Shown here: piece by piece, positions 1,419 through 46,598 of the stretch
Numbering within the stretch: the first letter of the stretch is position 1
Layout of the letters: each line of letters begins with the position of its first letter
NCBI GenBank assembly: GCA_018824305.1
Contig: JAHJGM010000006.1
Coordinates: 1-53,351, forward strand
Length of the DNA stretch: 53,351 bases
Reading direction: 5' to 3'
DNA from: a bacterium
GTDB taxonomy: Bacteria; Campylobacterota; Campylobacteria; Campylobacterales; Sulfurimonadaceae
Made by a program: the position numbers and the translations under genes
Notes under the pieces: generated by a model
Database searches by the model: none
What the model was told of the DNA's origin: nothing
What the model saw: the letters and a program-made list of their open reading frames with translations, nothing else

Positions 1419-1897
1419 AAATATTAAACACCGGTGGAACTTTTAACAAACGCTATAATCCATTAAATGGTGAGATGCAGGTACCCTTTGATAATAATGC
1501 ACTGGATGAAATGATGAGCTCTTTTATAAATCGCATCGACATGGCTGGTGTGCTTTATAAAGATAGTTTGGAATTTACTCCAGATGATAGAAAGATGCTG
1601 GCAAATATTATCAATGCTGATGAGGAGAAAGTTTTTATAATCATCCACGGGACTGATACTATGGATCTTACGGCTGGGTTCTTGGATGCTGTTTTTGATG
1701 ATAGAATTATCATCTTGACAGGTGCTATGAGCCCTTTTAAAATAGATAGCGTTGAGTCTAGTGTGAATTTTGGGATGGCTGTTGGATATGCAAAATGCTG
1801 TAAGCAAAACGGAGTCTATATCTGCATGAACGGTGAAGTACAGCCTTTTAATAAGCTTATAAAAAACAGATCTCTTGGAAAGTTTGAAATTGTCTGA
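1415..1897 (+). CDS. Asparaginase N-terminal-domain protein (half-length)
   Basis: A 160-aa protein that corresponds only to the N-terminal catalytic domain of type I/II L-asparaginases, which are normally about 330 aa. It carries both threonine motifs: TGGT at residues 6-9 and HGTDTMD at 78-84, followed by LTGAM near residue 101. The C-terminal domain, which helps form the substrate pocket and dimer, is absent. The reading frame is intact and has coupled overlaps at both ends (ATGA with gmhB, 23 bases with ccoI), so it does not look like decay. Amidohydrolase activity on asparagine is uncertain; another amide or a non-catalytic role is possible. Confidence 0.8.
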   Translation: MKILNTGGTFNKRYNPLNGEMQVPFDNNALDEMMSSFINRIDMAGVLYKDSLEFTPDDRKMLANIINADEEKVFIIIHGTDTMDLTAGFLDAVFDDRIIILTGAMSPFKIDSVESSVNFGMAVGYAKCCKQNGVYICMNGEVQPFNKLIKNRSLGKFEIV

Positions 1898-4307
1898 TAA
1901 AGTAAGCTGTACACACTGTCATCTGGAGTTTAATCAAGATGTCATGATAGTCGATGGTGAGCACTATTTTTGCTGCAAAGGATGTCAAGGTGTGTATCAC
2001 CTATTAAAAGACCAAGGACTTGGTAACTTTTATGAAAAAGTCGGGAATACGGCTTTAACTCCTCCTACACAACAATATGAAGATTCTGCAAATTTTAACT
2101 CTCCCGCATTTTATGATAAATTTGTATCGGTAAATAAAGACGGTTTTAGTGAAGTCTCTTTAATAATTGAAGGTATCCACTGTGCCGCTTGTGTTTGGCT
2201 TAATGAGAAAGCTTTGCATAAGATGGAGGGAGTGATAAGTGCTGACATAAACTATACAAATAACAAAGCTAAAATCGTCTGGGTTGATGATGTTTTAAAG
2301 CTCTCTTCTATCATCGATATGATACGGGCCATCGGGTATAATGCTTTTCCTTACGATGCTTCACTGCAAGAATTGCGTGCCAATAAAGAGAGAAAAGATT
2401 ATTATTTACGTATGGCTGTTGCGATATTTTCCACTATGAATGTTATGTGGATAGCAGTGGCTCAGTATGCAGGATACTTTACCGGGATCACTCAAGATAT
2501 AAAAACGATATTAAATATCGCCGAAGGTGTTCTTGCTACTCCTGTCTTGTTTTACAGCGGATGGATATTTTTTAGAGGTGCTTATTTTAGTGTAAAAACA
2601 AAAGCGGTCAATATGGATATTTTAGTAGCGACAGGGGCCTCTTTAACTTATATATACTCTATTTACATAACTTTATTTGAACGAGGTGAAGCTTATTTCG
2701 ACTCTGTGACTATGATCATCACTTTCGTATTGATCGGGAAGTTTTTAGAGATACTAAGCAAAAAAAGTGTCGCTGATACTTTAGATATCATGAGTAATCA
2801 TATACCAAGCAGTATCAAAGTGATCGAAGATGGCAAAATAGTCTCTAAAAATATCAATGACGTGAAAGTGTCGGATATCATTGCTGTGGGTTCAGGAGAA
2901 AGGGTTGCTCTTGATGGAGAGGTCGTTAGCGGAGAGGGGAATTTTGATGAGTCAAACTTAACAGGCGAGAGTGAGCCGATCTATAAACAAAACGGCGACA
3001 AGATCATAAGCGGGACGATCAGCATAGACGCCGATATAAAATATAGAGCTACGAAGGATTTCGCACACTCCACTTTATCTAATCTTGTTTCACTGCTTGA
3101 GGGTGCTATGAGCAATAAACCTCGCATTCAGCAATTGGCGAATACCCTTTCTGAATATTTTTCAGCAATAATTTTAGTTTTTGCTTTTATTACATTTGTT
3201 GTCTGGTGGATGTGGCCGCATAGTTTTGAAACATCTTTTATGGTAGGTATCTCTGTTATAGTGATAGCTTGTCCGTGCGCATTGGCTCTTGCAACGCCTG
3301 TCGCGACTTTGGTAGGGCTTGGTATTGCATCAAAACGTGGGATACTCTTTAAGCAAGCTGCACAGTTAGAGACAATGGCAAAGGCGACAACACTTGTTTT
3401 AGATAAGACAGGGACAATCACCCAAGGAAAGCCGAAAGTCGTTAAGGAACATATATACGATGAATTTGATACCTCTCTTTTGTACTCTTTGGTTCAAAAC
3501 TCTAAACACCCGATAGCTAAAGGTATCGCAGAGTTTATCTACGAAGAGAATCTGCATAATTTGGAACTAGAGGCTGTAAAACAGCTTCCGGCTCTTGGTA
3601 TCAGTGCTACATGTAACGATAAAAAACTCCTAGGCGGAAATGTGAAATTGATGCAAACCGAGGGATTGTGTCAGGATACTACTCTACATGTAGATGCGAG
3701 CGGCGGCGAACACAGTGAGTTCTATTTTGCATATGATGGGAAGATAGTCGCAAAATACGAGCTCTTTGATACGCCAAAAGAGGATGCCGCAGAAAGTATA
3801 AAAGCTATTAAATCACAAGGTATCGAAGTGATTATGTTAACAGGTGACCATAAAAAAAGTGCACTAAAGATCGCTGAGCAAGTCGGTATAGATAGAGTAG
3901 AAGCAGAGTTGACTCCCGATGGAAAATCATCTTATGTTAATGAGTTGCATAAAAGTGGGAAAGTCGTTGTCATGGCGGGTGACGGTGTAAATGATATATT
4001 GGCTCTTGCAACGGCTGATATCGGGATCGCAATGGGTAGTGGGAGTGATATAGCCATAGATGTTAGTGATGTAGTGCTGTTGAACAATTCACTTAAGAGT
4101 TTAAATGATGCTTTTAAAATATCGAGAAAAACATATTATTTGATAAAACAGAATTTAGCTATCTCTCTTTTGTATAATGCTATAACGATCCCGCTGGCGA
4201 TGGCCGGATATATCATACCGTTAATCGCAGCTATATCGATGTCTTTTAGTTCATTACTGGTCGTTGGAAACTCTATGAGAATCCGACTCGGTTTTAAAGA
4301 TAAATAA
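1875..4307 (+). CDS. ccoI: Copper-transporting P1B-type ATPase CcoI/FixI for cbb3 oxidase
   Basis: Inner-membrane copper ATPase that supplies copper for maturation of cbb3-type cytochrome c oxidase. Order of domains: an N-terminal cysteine-rich metal-binding region (CTHC at 12-15, CCKGC at 33-37), an HMA domain with GIHCAAC (100-106), eight predicted membrane segments, the CPC ion site at 466-468, DKTGT phosphorylation site at D510, the HP motif in SKHPIAKG, and GDGVND at 702-707. The family length is about 800 aa; this is 810. The annotated start is TTG, inside the end of the preceding gene; in-frame TTGs at 1884 and 1890 are alternatives. Followed 12 bases later by ccoS, which supports the CcoI assignment over CopA. 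Confidence 0.93.
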   Translation: MESLKLSDKVSCTHCHLEFNQDVMIVDGEHYFCCKGCQGVYHLLKDQGLGNFYEKVGNTALTPPTQQYEDSANFNSPAFYDKFVSVNKDGFSEVSLIIEGIHCAACVWLNEKALHKMEGVISADINYTNNKAKIVWVDDVLKLSSIIDMIRAIGYNAFPYDASLQELRANKERKDYYLRMAVAIFSTMNVMWIAVAQYAGYFTGITQDIKTILNIAEGVLATPVLFYSGWIFFRGAYFSVKTKAVNMDILVATGASLTYIYSIYITLFERGEAYFDSVTMIITFVLIGKFLEILSKKSVADTLDIMSNHIPSSIKVIEDGKIVSKNINDVKVSDIIAVGSGERVALDGEVVSGEGNFDESNLTGESEPIYKQNGDKIISGTISIDADIKYRATKDFAHSTLSNLVSLLEGAMSNKPRIQQLANTLSEYFSAIILVFAFITFVVWWMWPHSFETSFMVGISVIVIACPCALALATPVATLVGLGIASKRGILFKQAAQLETMAKATTLVLDKTGTITQGKPKVVKEHIYDEFDTSLLYSLVQNSKHPIAKGIAEFIYEENLHNLELEAVKQLPALGISATCNDKKLLGGNVKLMQTEGLCQDTTLHVDASGGEHSEFYFAYDGKIVAKYELFDTPKEDAAESIKAIKSQGIEVIMLTGDHKKSALKIAEQVGIDRVEAELTPDGKSSYVNELHKSGKVVVMAGDGVNDILALATADIGIAMGSGSDIAIDVSDVVLLNNSLKSLNDAFKISRKTYYLIKQNLAISLLYNAITIPLAMAGYIIPLIAAISMSFSSLLVVGNSMRIRLGFKDK

Positions 4308-44281: not shown

Positions 44282-44307
44282 AAAGAGAGGCTACTCAGTC
44301 TCTCTTT
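44282..44307 (+). terminator. Terminator after msbA, overlapping ccoG end
   Basis: AAAGAGAG pairs with CTCTCTTT over 8 bp with a 10-base loop, followed by TT; the U-rich 3-prime arm gives a CTCTCTTTTT tail for plus-strand transcripts. The hairpin includes the ccoG stop codon, so it may also act weakly on the convergent ccoG transcript. Confidence 0.65.
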
Positions 44308-45745
44308 TTAAAACATCTTCGCGAGGAAAAGTAAATGTTGCTTTTCTAAATACGACTATTTTATCTATTATCTTTCCATCTTTGTCTAAAGCATACGCTT
44401 TAATAGTGATAGGGATAACAGTATCTTTGCTCGGATCATCAACTAGCATATCCGTTGTGTAGAGTGTAACGATCTTTTTCTTTTTGACATCCGGTTTTAC
44501 ATCAAACGGTTTTGTAGGCTGCTCGATCTTGATTTTACCCTCCATGCCTTTTGGCGGGATGATATCAAAGTAAAAATCATAATCTTTATCTTGCGTATTT
44601 TGAAGCAAGAATATATAAGAGTTTTTAACGTCATATTTTCCATTGTCTAGCTTTTCAATAGCATAAAGACGAGTCTCTTTGTTAATGTTTAAAAGCATGT
44701 GCTCTTTTTTGCTTCCCATAAGCCCTATAATAACAGCTAAAATAACCAATATAATCGTATAACCTATGATTTTAGGTCTGAAATATCTTGTTTTTCCGGC
44801 TTGTTCTAAGATCTCACGTTCACTTGACCATACGACAAGACTCTCTTTTCCAAGATCCCCCATGACTTTAGTACAGGCATCAACACACTCTAAACAGTTG
44901 ATACACTCTAATTGCAAGCCTTGGCGAATGTCGATATGCGTCGGACAAACTGTCACACAGCTTAGACAAGTAGTACACTCTGCATTTGGATTTACTTCTA
45001 AGAGATCTTTTTGCTTCGTAAATACAAGCTCTTTATTTTCATTATATACTTCTCCACCACGGTGAGGGTTATAGATCGCCATAACTGTATCTTCATCATA
45101 TAAAACAGACTGGATTCTAGAATATGGACAAACATAAACACAGAAGTTCTCTTTTAAGAAAATGATGTCATAGATCAAAAAGCCTACAACACCGATCATA
45201 AAGCCCATCATGACCATATGGTCTGCCGGATTTTTTATGTACTGGAAAAAATCTTCCGGCGGAATAAAGAACCATAAAAAGTCAGCTGCCGCAATAGTCG
45301 CAAGTACGATCCAAAGTGTCAAAGCGATAACTTTTTTCACTTTGTTTTCAGCTTTGCTCATATCCGGTTCTTGCTGCTTGTTTTTGATACGTTTGCGAAG
45401 TCTTAAAATTGTAGTCTCGATCAGGTCGCGGTAAATAACGCGAAAAACAGTTTGAGGACATATCCATCCACAAAATACGCGTCCGCCAAGAACTGTCATA
45501 CCAAATACGCCTAAAAACAGCATCATCAATAAAAATGGCATAAGATACATCTCTTGCATATCAAATTGCACAAATCCTAAGTGAAGTTTCAGTTTATCAA
45601 AACTAAGTAAAAATAGATGATTGCCATCTATTGTGATCCATGGAATTGAAAGAGCTAAGATAGTCGCGATTGCAAATACGACATATCTCATCTTTCTCCA
45701 TGCTATTCCTGTATTTTTTGGCATAGGCTTTGAATCTGTAGCCAT
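44291..45745 (-). CDS. ccoG: cbb3 oxidase accessory iron-sulfur protein CcoG (RdxA/FixG)
   Basis: A 484-aa polytopic membrane protein with two ferredoxin-like 4Fe-4S sites (CTTCLSCVTVCP and CINCLECVDAC), plus CGWICP and NFCVYVCP. CcoG-type proteins reduce copper for cbb3 oxidase maturation, working with CcoI and CcoS encoded 40 kb away in this window. The C-terminal immunoglobulin-like periplasmic domain is present. A strong AAGGAG precedes the ATG. It starts 10 bases after the stop of the recombinase-like gene, so the two are probably one transcript and the upstream promoter/operator controls ccoG. Confidence 0.95.
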   Translation of the reverse strand: MATDSKPMPKNTGIAWRKMRYVVFAIATILALSIPWITIDGNHLFLLSFDKLKLHLGFVQFDMQEMYLMPFLLMMLFLGVFGMTVLGGRVFCGWICPQTVFRVIYRDLIETTILRLRKRIKNKQQEPDMSKAENKVKKVIALTLWIVLATIAAADFLWFFIPPEDFFQYIKNPADHMVMMGFMIGVVGFLIYDIIFLKENFCVYVCPYSRIQSVLYDEDTVMAIYNPHRGGEVYNENKELVFTKQKDLLEVNPNAECTTCLSCVTVCPTHIDIRQGLQLECINCLECVDACTKVMGDLGKESLVVWSSEREILEQAGKTRYFRPKIIGYTIILVILAVIIGLMGSKKEHMLLNINKETRLYAIEKLDNGKYDVKNSYIFLLQNTQDKDYDFYFDIIPPKGMEGKIKIEQPTKPFDVKPDVKKKKIVTLYTTDMLVDDPSKDTVIPITIKAYALDKDGKIIDKIVVFRKATFTFPREDVLKRETE

Positions 45746-45755
45746 GTGTTTCTCC

Positions 45756-46400
45756 TTAATTTGTTGTTATCGGACAAGTGATTTTGCTTATCACCGTCTC
45801 TTCTGCATTTTCTGGTTCATTGTGAACTAACGAGCCTGAAGCGACCTCTTTTAATTCACGGGACTCTATATAATCTTTTAACGAACTGCGGCTTACGCCT
45901 ATTAATCTTGCGATTTCGCTTACACTTTGATTTGATTTGATATAAGATAATATCTCATTATGGTATTTGTCAAATTTTGATGATGAACGACTCCCTTTTG
46001 GTCTACCTATAGACTTCTTTGAACCTTCTTGAAGAGTCTGTCGAAGCTGATCGATAAGACCTAAAACCAGCATTACATCGCTCTTGCAACTAATTATAAC
46101 AGATTGTTTGACAAAGTGGACTTCATATCCATTTTTTAGTAAACAGCTGAACATTTGAACAGCATCTTCCATATTTGTACTAAGAACCCAAGTGTCATAA
46201 ACCAAAAGAGTTCCGCCTGCTGCATTTTTAAAGTATGAAGCGACTTCATCCCTTTCCTGCAAGCGTTTATTCTGAGATTTGTGGTCTATAAATTCATCAT
46301 CTATCTCTATCCCTTTTTGTTGTGCATACAAATTTATCGCTTTTAATTGTTCATATGCAGCTTCAAAATTTTTATCAGAACGAATATAAGCATGAATCAT
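45756..46400 (-). CDS. Catalytically degenerate serine-recombinase-like DNA-binding protein
   Basis: A 214-aa protein with the resolvase N-terminal fold (1-125), then GRPKGSRSS (132-140), a minor-groove arm as in Hin, and a helix-turn-helix SEIARLIGVSRSSLKDYIE (161-179). Compared with gamma-delta resolvase, Y5/R7 align with Y6/R8, but the catalytic Ser10 position is D9 (S8 is next to it), and the DRLGR motif is DTWVL, losing R68 and R71. R50 may match R45. It therefore probably cannot recombine DNA but can still dimerise and bind it. Directly upstream of ccoG. The ATG has GGAG 13 bases away. A functional invertase is the less likely alternative. Confidence 0.8.
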   Translation of the reverse strand: MIHAYIRSDKNFEAAYEQLKAINLYAQQKGIEIDDEFIDHKSQNKRLQERDEVASYFKNAAGGTLLVYDTWVLSTNMEDAVQMFSCLLKNGYEVHFVKQSVIISCKSDVMLVLGLIDQLRQTLQEGSKKSIGRPKGSRSSSKFDKYHNEILSYIKSNQSVSEIARLIGVSRSSLKDYIESRELKEVASGSLVHNEPENAEETVISKITCPITTN

Positions 46401-46430: not shown

Positions 46431-46465
46431 TTTCATCGTCATTATACATTATTGTGACGATGAAA
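46431..46465 (-). promoter_or_regulatory. 11-bp inverted repeat operator bracketing the -10 box
   Basis: TTTCATCGTCA (46431-46441) and TGACGATGAAA (46455-46465) form a perfect 11-bp inverted repeat with a 13-base spacer. The minus-strand TATAAT lies between and touches one arm. Further half-site-like CGTCA copies lie at 46490-46494 and 46504-46508. This is a likely binding site for the recombinase-like protein or another dimeric regulator. Confidence 0.7.
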
Positions 46466-46470
46466 GTCAA
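46441..46470 (-). promoter_or_regulatory. Sigma-70-type promoter of the recombinase-like/ccoG operon
   Basis: On the minus strand TTGACT (46470-46465) and TATAAT (46446-46441) are separated by 18 bases. Predicted transcription start is near 46434, giving a leader of about 33 bases with the GGAG ribosome-binding site. The inverted repeat covers the spacer and the start site. Confidence 0.6.
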
Positions 46471-46598
46471 TAAAAAAAATACTTTTTTACGTCAATATTG
46501 GTTCGTCATAATTTTTGTATTACAATCAAAAATCATCTGCCTCACAAGAGGTCGGCTTCAGCGCCTTTGCAGTTTGCATTTTTCTTTAATATCTTTGA

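Follow-up and report, generated by a model that had tools for sequence, protein, structure and literature searches.

The stretch of DNA analysed here (the window, 53,351 nucleotides from a member of Sulfurimonadaceae) was found to contain a gene, named R below, that resembles a serine recombinase and lies directly before ccoG, the gene of an assembly factor of cbb3-type oxidase. The question raised by this locus is whether R still encodes a recombinase or has become a transcription regulator, and, if the latter, which genes it controls and to which signal it responds.

Gene R and its fold

45756..46400, minus strand: gene R, degenerate serine recombinase and proposed transcription regulator, 214 aa (Pfam, profile and orthologues)
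44291..45745, minus strand: ccoG, cbb3-oxidase assembly factor, same orientation, 10 bp 3' of gene R (TIGR02745 and linkage)
45969..46007, minus strand: GRPKGSxSxSKFD arm, residues 132-144, resolvase-type minor-groove arm (orthologue alignment)
45852..45962, minus strand: helix-turn-helix, residues 147-183 (Pfam and orthologue alignment)

Gene R was found to start with an ATG codon and to encode 214 aa, followed by ccoG, the product of which matched TIGR02745 with an E value of 2.4e-134. The product of R matched the Pfam Resolvase domain (PF00239) with 32.3 bits at a cut-off of 23.3, and this N-terminal domain was found in 17 of 20 R family members and HTH_7 in seven of the 20. A family profile built from 20 orthologues and compared with solved structures was found to align with gamma-delta resolvase over the catalytic domain and the helix-turn-helix (E 0.0016), with TP901-1 integrase and the gamma-delta/Tn3 resolvases among the matches. 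The GRPKG arm was invariant in the R family except for Lys135, which was occupied by K or R and rarely by V, L or I, and was followed by a strongly conserved helix-turn-helix. The score of R against the Mpi master invertase model NF009949 (40 bits) was far under the curated cut-off of 272. A structure predicted from four sequences only was of low confidence (pLDDT 52), and its best Foldseek match, the Sin recombinase (2r0q), was weak (E 5e-3, TM 0.25).

The membership of R in the serine recombinase (resolvase/invertase) superfamily by fold was confirmed by the domain and profile comparisons. A preliminary description of this DNA had placed the end of the gene 10 bases before ccoG and had recognised a resolvase-like N-terminal domain with a DNA-binding tail; the reading frame and the gap were found as described, and both parts of the protein were recovered, with PF00239 above its cut-off and the profile covering catalytic domain and helix-turn-helix.

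Loss of the catalytic residues

46374..46376, minus strand: Asp9 codon, replacing the catalytic Ser10 (orthologue alignments)
46185..46187, minus strand: Val72 codon, replacing Arg68 of gamma-delta resolvase (alignments and 1gdt profile)
46176..46178, minus strand: Thr75 codon, replacing Arg71 of gamma-delta resolvase (alignments and 1gdt profile)

The D67-R68-L69-G70-R71 residues of gamma-delta resolvase were found to correspond to W71-V72-L73-S74-T75 of R, both by 1gdt profile alignment and by comparison with intact paralogues, and Arg8 was found to align with Arg7 of R. In 58 orthologues of the window's family, position 9 was occupied by D (55) or E (3) and position 72 by V (52) or T (6), and position 75 was never occupied by R. 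An equivalent of Ser10, R68 or R71 was found in none of the 55 aligned clade members from ten families, in which the catalytic positions contained D, V, T, L, K or Q, and the Arg8 equivalent was retained in most of the clade families. The conserved loss of catalytic residues was confirmed, on these alignments, to be far beyond chance.

The identification of the catalytic serine with Asp9 in the preliminary description agrees with the pairing of Ser10 and Asp9 found here. It had further given Arg68 and Arg71 as Thr and Leu; the loss of both arginines stood, but the register was two residues early, as the profile and intact-paralogue alignments gave Val72 and Thr75 and not Thr70 and Leu73. The survey of homologues that it had proposed as a check returned the loss of the serine and both arginines, and all of the ccoG-type members in the sample were linked to ccoG.

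Distribution and linkage to ccoG

Strong matches to R were found in 106 of the 151 genomes of the window's family (Sulfurimonadaceae), and equally strong ones were numerous in further families of Campylobacterales. The orthologues formed one clade on a 100/100 branch, distributed over at least ten Campylobacterales families, and the tree placed 55 clade members on one side of this branch and, on the other, a further degenerate group (f9) together with the intact paralogues. Linkage was sampled in 58 orthologues of the window's family and in 27 from f2, f4, f5, f6, f7, f18, f20 and f22. In all 85 of these orthologues, none of which is from f17, R immediately preceded ccoG in the same orientation, the two genes being separated by -19 to 61 bp, and the structure of the locus was stable across the order. 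The two f17 members were not adjacent to ccoG, and one of them (L120) was also without the cysteine-containing tail. The R-less genomes of the window's family that were tested all contained ccoG.

The convergent neighbours of the f17 member L120 (5010-7052), read by eye, resemble Sco and PCuAC copper chaperones.

Operator at the promoter of gene R

The following features were obtained by promoter comparison:
46455..46494, no strand: res-like operator, inverted TGACGT...TCGTCA pair, 40 bp here and 39 bp typically
46465..46470, minus strand: -35 box TTGACT, within the operator
46441..46446, minus strand: -10 box TATAAT, with an 18-bp spacer
46431..46441, minus strand: third half-site TGACGATGAAA, abutting or overlapping the end of the -10 box
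46503..46508, minus strand: extra upstream half-site TGACGA

The R promoters were found to contain a conserved res-like inverted repeat of about 39 bp, TGACGA-N27-TCGTCA, which encloses the -35 box. The usual layout 5' of R consisted of TGACGAAAAAA, about 15 bp, TTGACTTTTTTCGTCA, about 7 bp and TATAAT, and the third half-site TGACGATGAAA at the -10 box was seen in the window's family. The operator was nearly always 38-40 bp long and its position near R was near-fixed. An exact operator was established within 200 bp upstream of R at 70 of 98 loci, against a shuffled rate of 0.0008 per locus. Several of the misses were one-base changes or mirrored forms, such as AGACG...CGTCT in L126; the operator of f6 was truly diverged, that of part of f7 was diverged or partly absent, and f18 and f22 contained the variant TGACG/TGGCG...CGCCA. 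Of the two f17 members, in which ccoG does not lie next to R, L119 was found to keep the exact operator and L120 a copy with one change. With its specificity bases on the outside and an A/T-rich interior, the site has the anatomy of resolvase sites.

Such a site, with its specificity bases directed outward, would also be expected of a protein which is still a recombinase, whether through a nucleophile that has moved or through some cryptic activity, and for which the conserved site is a recombination site; the retention of Arg7 in most families is in line with this. It is nevertheless scarcely credible, as Ser10, R68 and R71 are missing in every aligned clade member with varied replacements, as the site is single and fixed in place over a promoter whereas recombination needs pairs or accessory arrays, and as the locus does not change in structure across the order. 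The reading of R as a regulator is preferred below.

Co-occurrence of the operator and gene R

A first operator pattern, with loose W positions only, gave many chance matches in GC-richer genomes, and an A/T-rich flank was consequently required. The strict operator was found in 74 of the 106 genomes of the window's family with R and in two of the 45 without (Fisher p 7.5e-15), and sites away from the R promoter were found in at least 38 of the 106 and in one of the 45, respectively (p 3e-6). These tests take no account of the relatedness of species. Of the two R-less exceptions, one genome is 80% complete and has its sites at the usual targets, and the other contains a fragment of R. Five pattern matches were found in 15 R-less genomes of the window's family, none of them A/T-rich; the TGACG pair was absent from the ccoG promoters of R-less genomes, and TGACG was absent from the three readable promoters of a small membrane-protein gene (described below) in R-less genomes. 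The presence of the operator in genomes with R, and its essential absence from those without, supports transcription control at the level of sequence, independently of the survey of homologues.

Co-occurrence alone cannot name the binding protein, and another regulator, merely co-inherited with R, could bind the TGACG operator, with R in some other DNA-linked role. This is very unlikely: the sites vanish with R although ccoG and the small gene remain, they remain with R in f17 though ccoG is not adjacent, and their anatomy fits resolvase half-sites and the arm and helix-turn-helix of R itself. Binding of the operator by R is the inference that is retained.

In many of the R-less ccoG promoters (L158-L171) the TGACG pair was missing and TTATAATAATTATAA, an A/T-rich sequence resembling a palindrome, was found in its stead, which suggests a replacement by another regulator.

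Other predicted targets

A second site in the window's own genome was found on contig C23 (87912-87950), 75 bp before the gene of a 63-aa membrane protein, which is followed by an M48 peptidase gene. This small membrane-protein gene (M-E-P-x-L...DY-x-x-LKG-x-K-+) was found to have the site in most genera. Sites were also found before sulfide:quinone oxidoreductase (sqr) genes (PDB SQR, E 3e-29), before msrA, which flanks sqr on the other side, and before genes of a rhodanese, a cytochrome c, an outer-membrane efflux protein and a Nitro_FeMo-Co domain protein. Ten of the 11 sqr sites contained TTGACT in the operator, followed by a -10-like hexamer 17 bp on. The sites of the small membrane-protein gene were located some 75 bp 5' of its start codon, with no clear -10 box at the spacing seen for R and sqr.

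Since the site covers the -35 box and the spacer at R and sqr, repression is predicted there. An activator or dual regulator, instead of mainly a repressor, is not excluded by the small membrane-protein gene, because no promoter like those of R and sqr is visible at its site; such a role for R is unlikely, given that the R and sqr sites lie over a strong -35 box and spacer with a near-consensus -10 box, a layout that predicts repression.

Three further observations were made. The small membrane protein (62-71 aa, MSEPTLEDI.DYNTLKGEKKR.VWAVI; L151 1235-1426 and orthologues) is without a Pfam family, and apart from ccoG no predicted target is as widespread as its gene. An additional A/T-rich site was found in one genome, 75 bp before a DUF6858 gene (L193 5125-5517). 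No operator was found next to a heavy-metal P-type ATPase gene at 1875-4307 of the window, which resembles CcoI and is some 40 kb away from ccoG.

Cysteine pair and the putative signal

46143..46145, minus strand: Cys86 codon, invariant in 53 aligned ccoG-linked members (alignments)
45774..45776, minus strand: Cys209 codon in the C-terminal tail, invariant in ccoG-linked members (alignments)

Positions 86 and 209 were both occupied by Cys in 53 of 53 aligned ccoG-linked rows, and both cysteines were absent in f9 (nine rows) and f17 (two rows). This distribution ties a dithiol to those forms of R that are linked to ccoG and suggests a thiol switch, which is inferred from sequence alone.

CcoG is described as a cupric reductase acting in cbb3-oxidase assembly (Marckmann 2019, cited in PMC8267372). 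Our preferred guess for the signal, held only tentatively, is sulfide/persulfide or redox, on account of this role, of the sqr and rhodanese sites and of the cysteine pair. That R senses copper or the general redox state and not persulfide or sulfide is doubtful but possible: the same reductase activity of CcoG, the Sco- and PCuAC-like genes beside R in f17 and the capacity that Cys86 and Cys209 could have for binding a metal are in its favour, whereas the named sites outside the R-ccoG operon are at sqr, rhodanese, msrA and cytochrome c genes and no copper-export ATPase gene is among them.

Proposed mechanism

The Tn3 resolvase TnpR is a repressor of promoters within res, including its own (PMC7157771), and by analogy R looks like a resolvase that has lost catalysis and kept its regulatory function. 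R is in all probability a dedicated transcription regulator derived from a serine recombinase that no longer cuts DNA, although its DNA binding and repression are inferred and not observed, and the evidence as a whole rests on comparison of sequences and loci. A dimer of R would bind the res-like site, with the helix-turn-helix reading the two outward TGACG half-sites and the GRPKG arms taking the A/T-rich inner flanks. Bound to its own operator, R would cover the -35 box and switch off the R-ccoG operon, and this autorepression would adjust CcoG to the demand for it. In the window's family R would also control the small membrane-protein gene and, depending on the genus, the genes of sulfide:quinone oxidoreductase, rhodanese, MsrA and cytochrome c. 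The signal input is inferred to be a redox or persulfide switch formed by the Cys86 and Cys209 thiols.

The preliminary description had proposed a recombinase turned into a transcription factor for cbb3-oxidase assembly. The regulator part of this proposal gained support from the res-like operator over the R promoter, and the predicted targets were found to extend beyond ccoG to sulfide- and redox-related genes that have the operator in the window's family. What emerges is a putative order-wide transcription-factor family from a dead serine recombinase, in which resolvase-type recognition would have been kept and strand exchange lost. The fuller proposal, that such a factor with a cysteine-pair sulfide/redox sensor couples cbb3-oxidase assembly to sulfide oxidation, can be put forward only as a possibility short of likely.

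Comparison with known systems

No paper joining ccoG, a recombinase and Sulfurimonas was found in the open-access literature, which does not prove novelty, and nothing relevant was found there on dead-recombinase regulators. A 2019 review of respiratory regulation in Campylobacterota does not mention a recombinase or resolvase, and the consulted passages of a review on the exaptation of mobile elements contain no serine-recombinase transcription factor. R would be a candidate regulator of cbb3-oxidase assembly and sulfide oxidation in Campylobacterota, and a clean case of the conversion of a mobile-element enzyme into a cellular transcription factor.

The Arcobacteraceae-like relatives of f9 (L112-L118, L138 and L140) are also degenerate, with Ser10 replaced by Asn in eight of nine and R68 lost; in contrast to R, they form a separate clade in which R71 is kept, without the cysteine pair and the TGACG operator and at a different locus. 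An independent domestication of these recombinases is possible. Their genes were found to occupy a conserved position in the chromosome, close to ubiX-, coaD- and tmk-like genes, and several of them had a common upstream TAACATnnTGTATAA element.

Mpi-type invertases (NF009949/PRK13413) were the best curated family match of R (E 3.3e-10), and they and the intact paralogues of the same order (L130, L131) contain a GKPKG/GRPKG-KSK arm similar to that of R; the intact paralogues keep YxRVS and RLGR, both of which are missing in R. The Hin and Gin invertases contain the catalytic domain, arm and helix-turn-helix in the same order as R, whereas R is without the catalytic residues, contains an extra C-terminal tail with an invariant Cys and has no invertible segment that could be seen. 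The persulfide-responsive repressors SqrR, BigR and CstR control sqr and rhodanese genes, and the cysteine pair of R is by analogy a possible sensor; their fold is unrelated to that of R, for which sensing data are lacking.

The Tn3/gamma-delta TnpR resolvases have in common with R the fold, the C-terminal helix-turn-helix and A/T-rich inverted-repeat sites, and just as TnpR represses promoters embedded in res (PMC7157771), the operator of R lies over its own promoter. TnpR is catalytically active and transposon-borne, whereas R is without Ser10, R68 and R71, single-copy and vertically inherited, and, unlike TnpR, appears to control genes of respiration and sulfide oxidation. The self-repression that is a side job of TnpR-type resolvases has seemingly been made the only job of R, fixed across much of the order, and has seemingly spread from there to a regulon.
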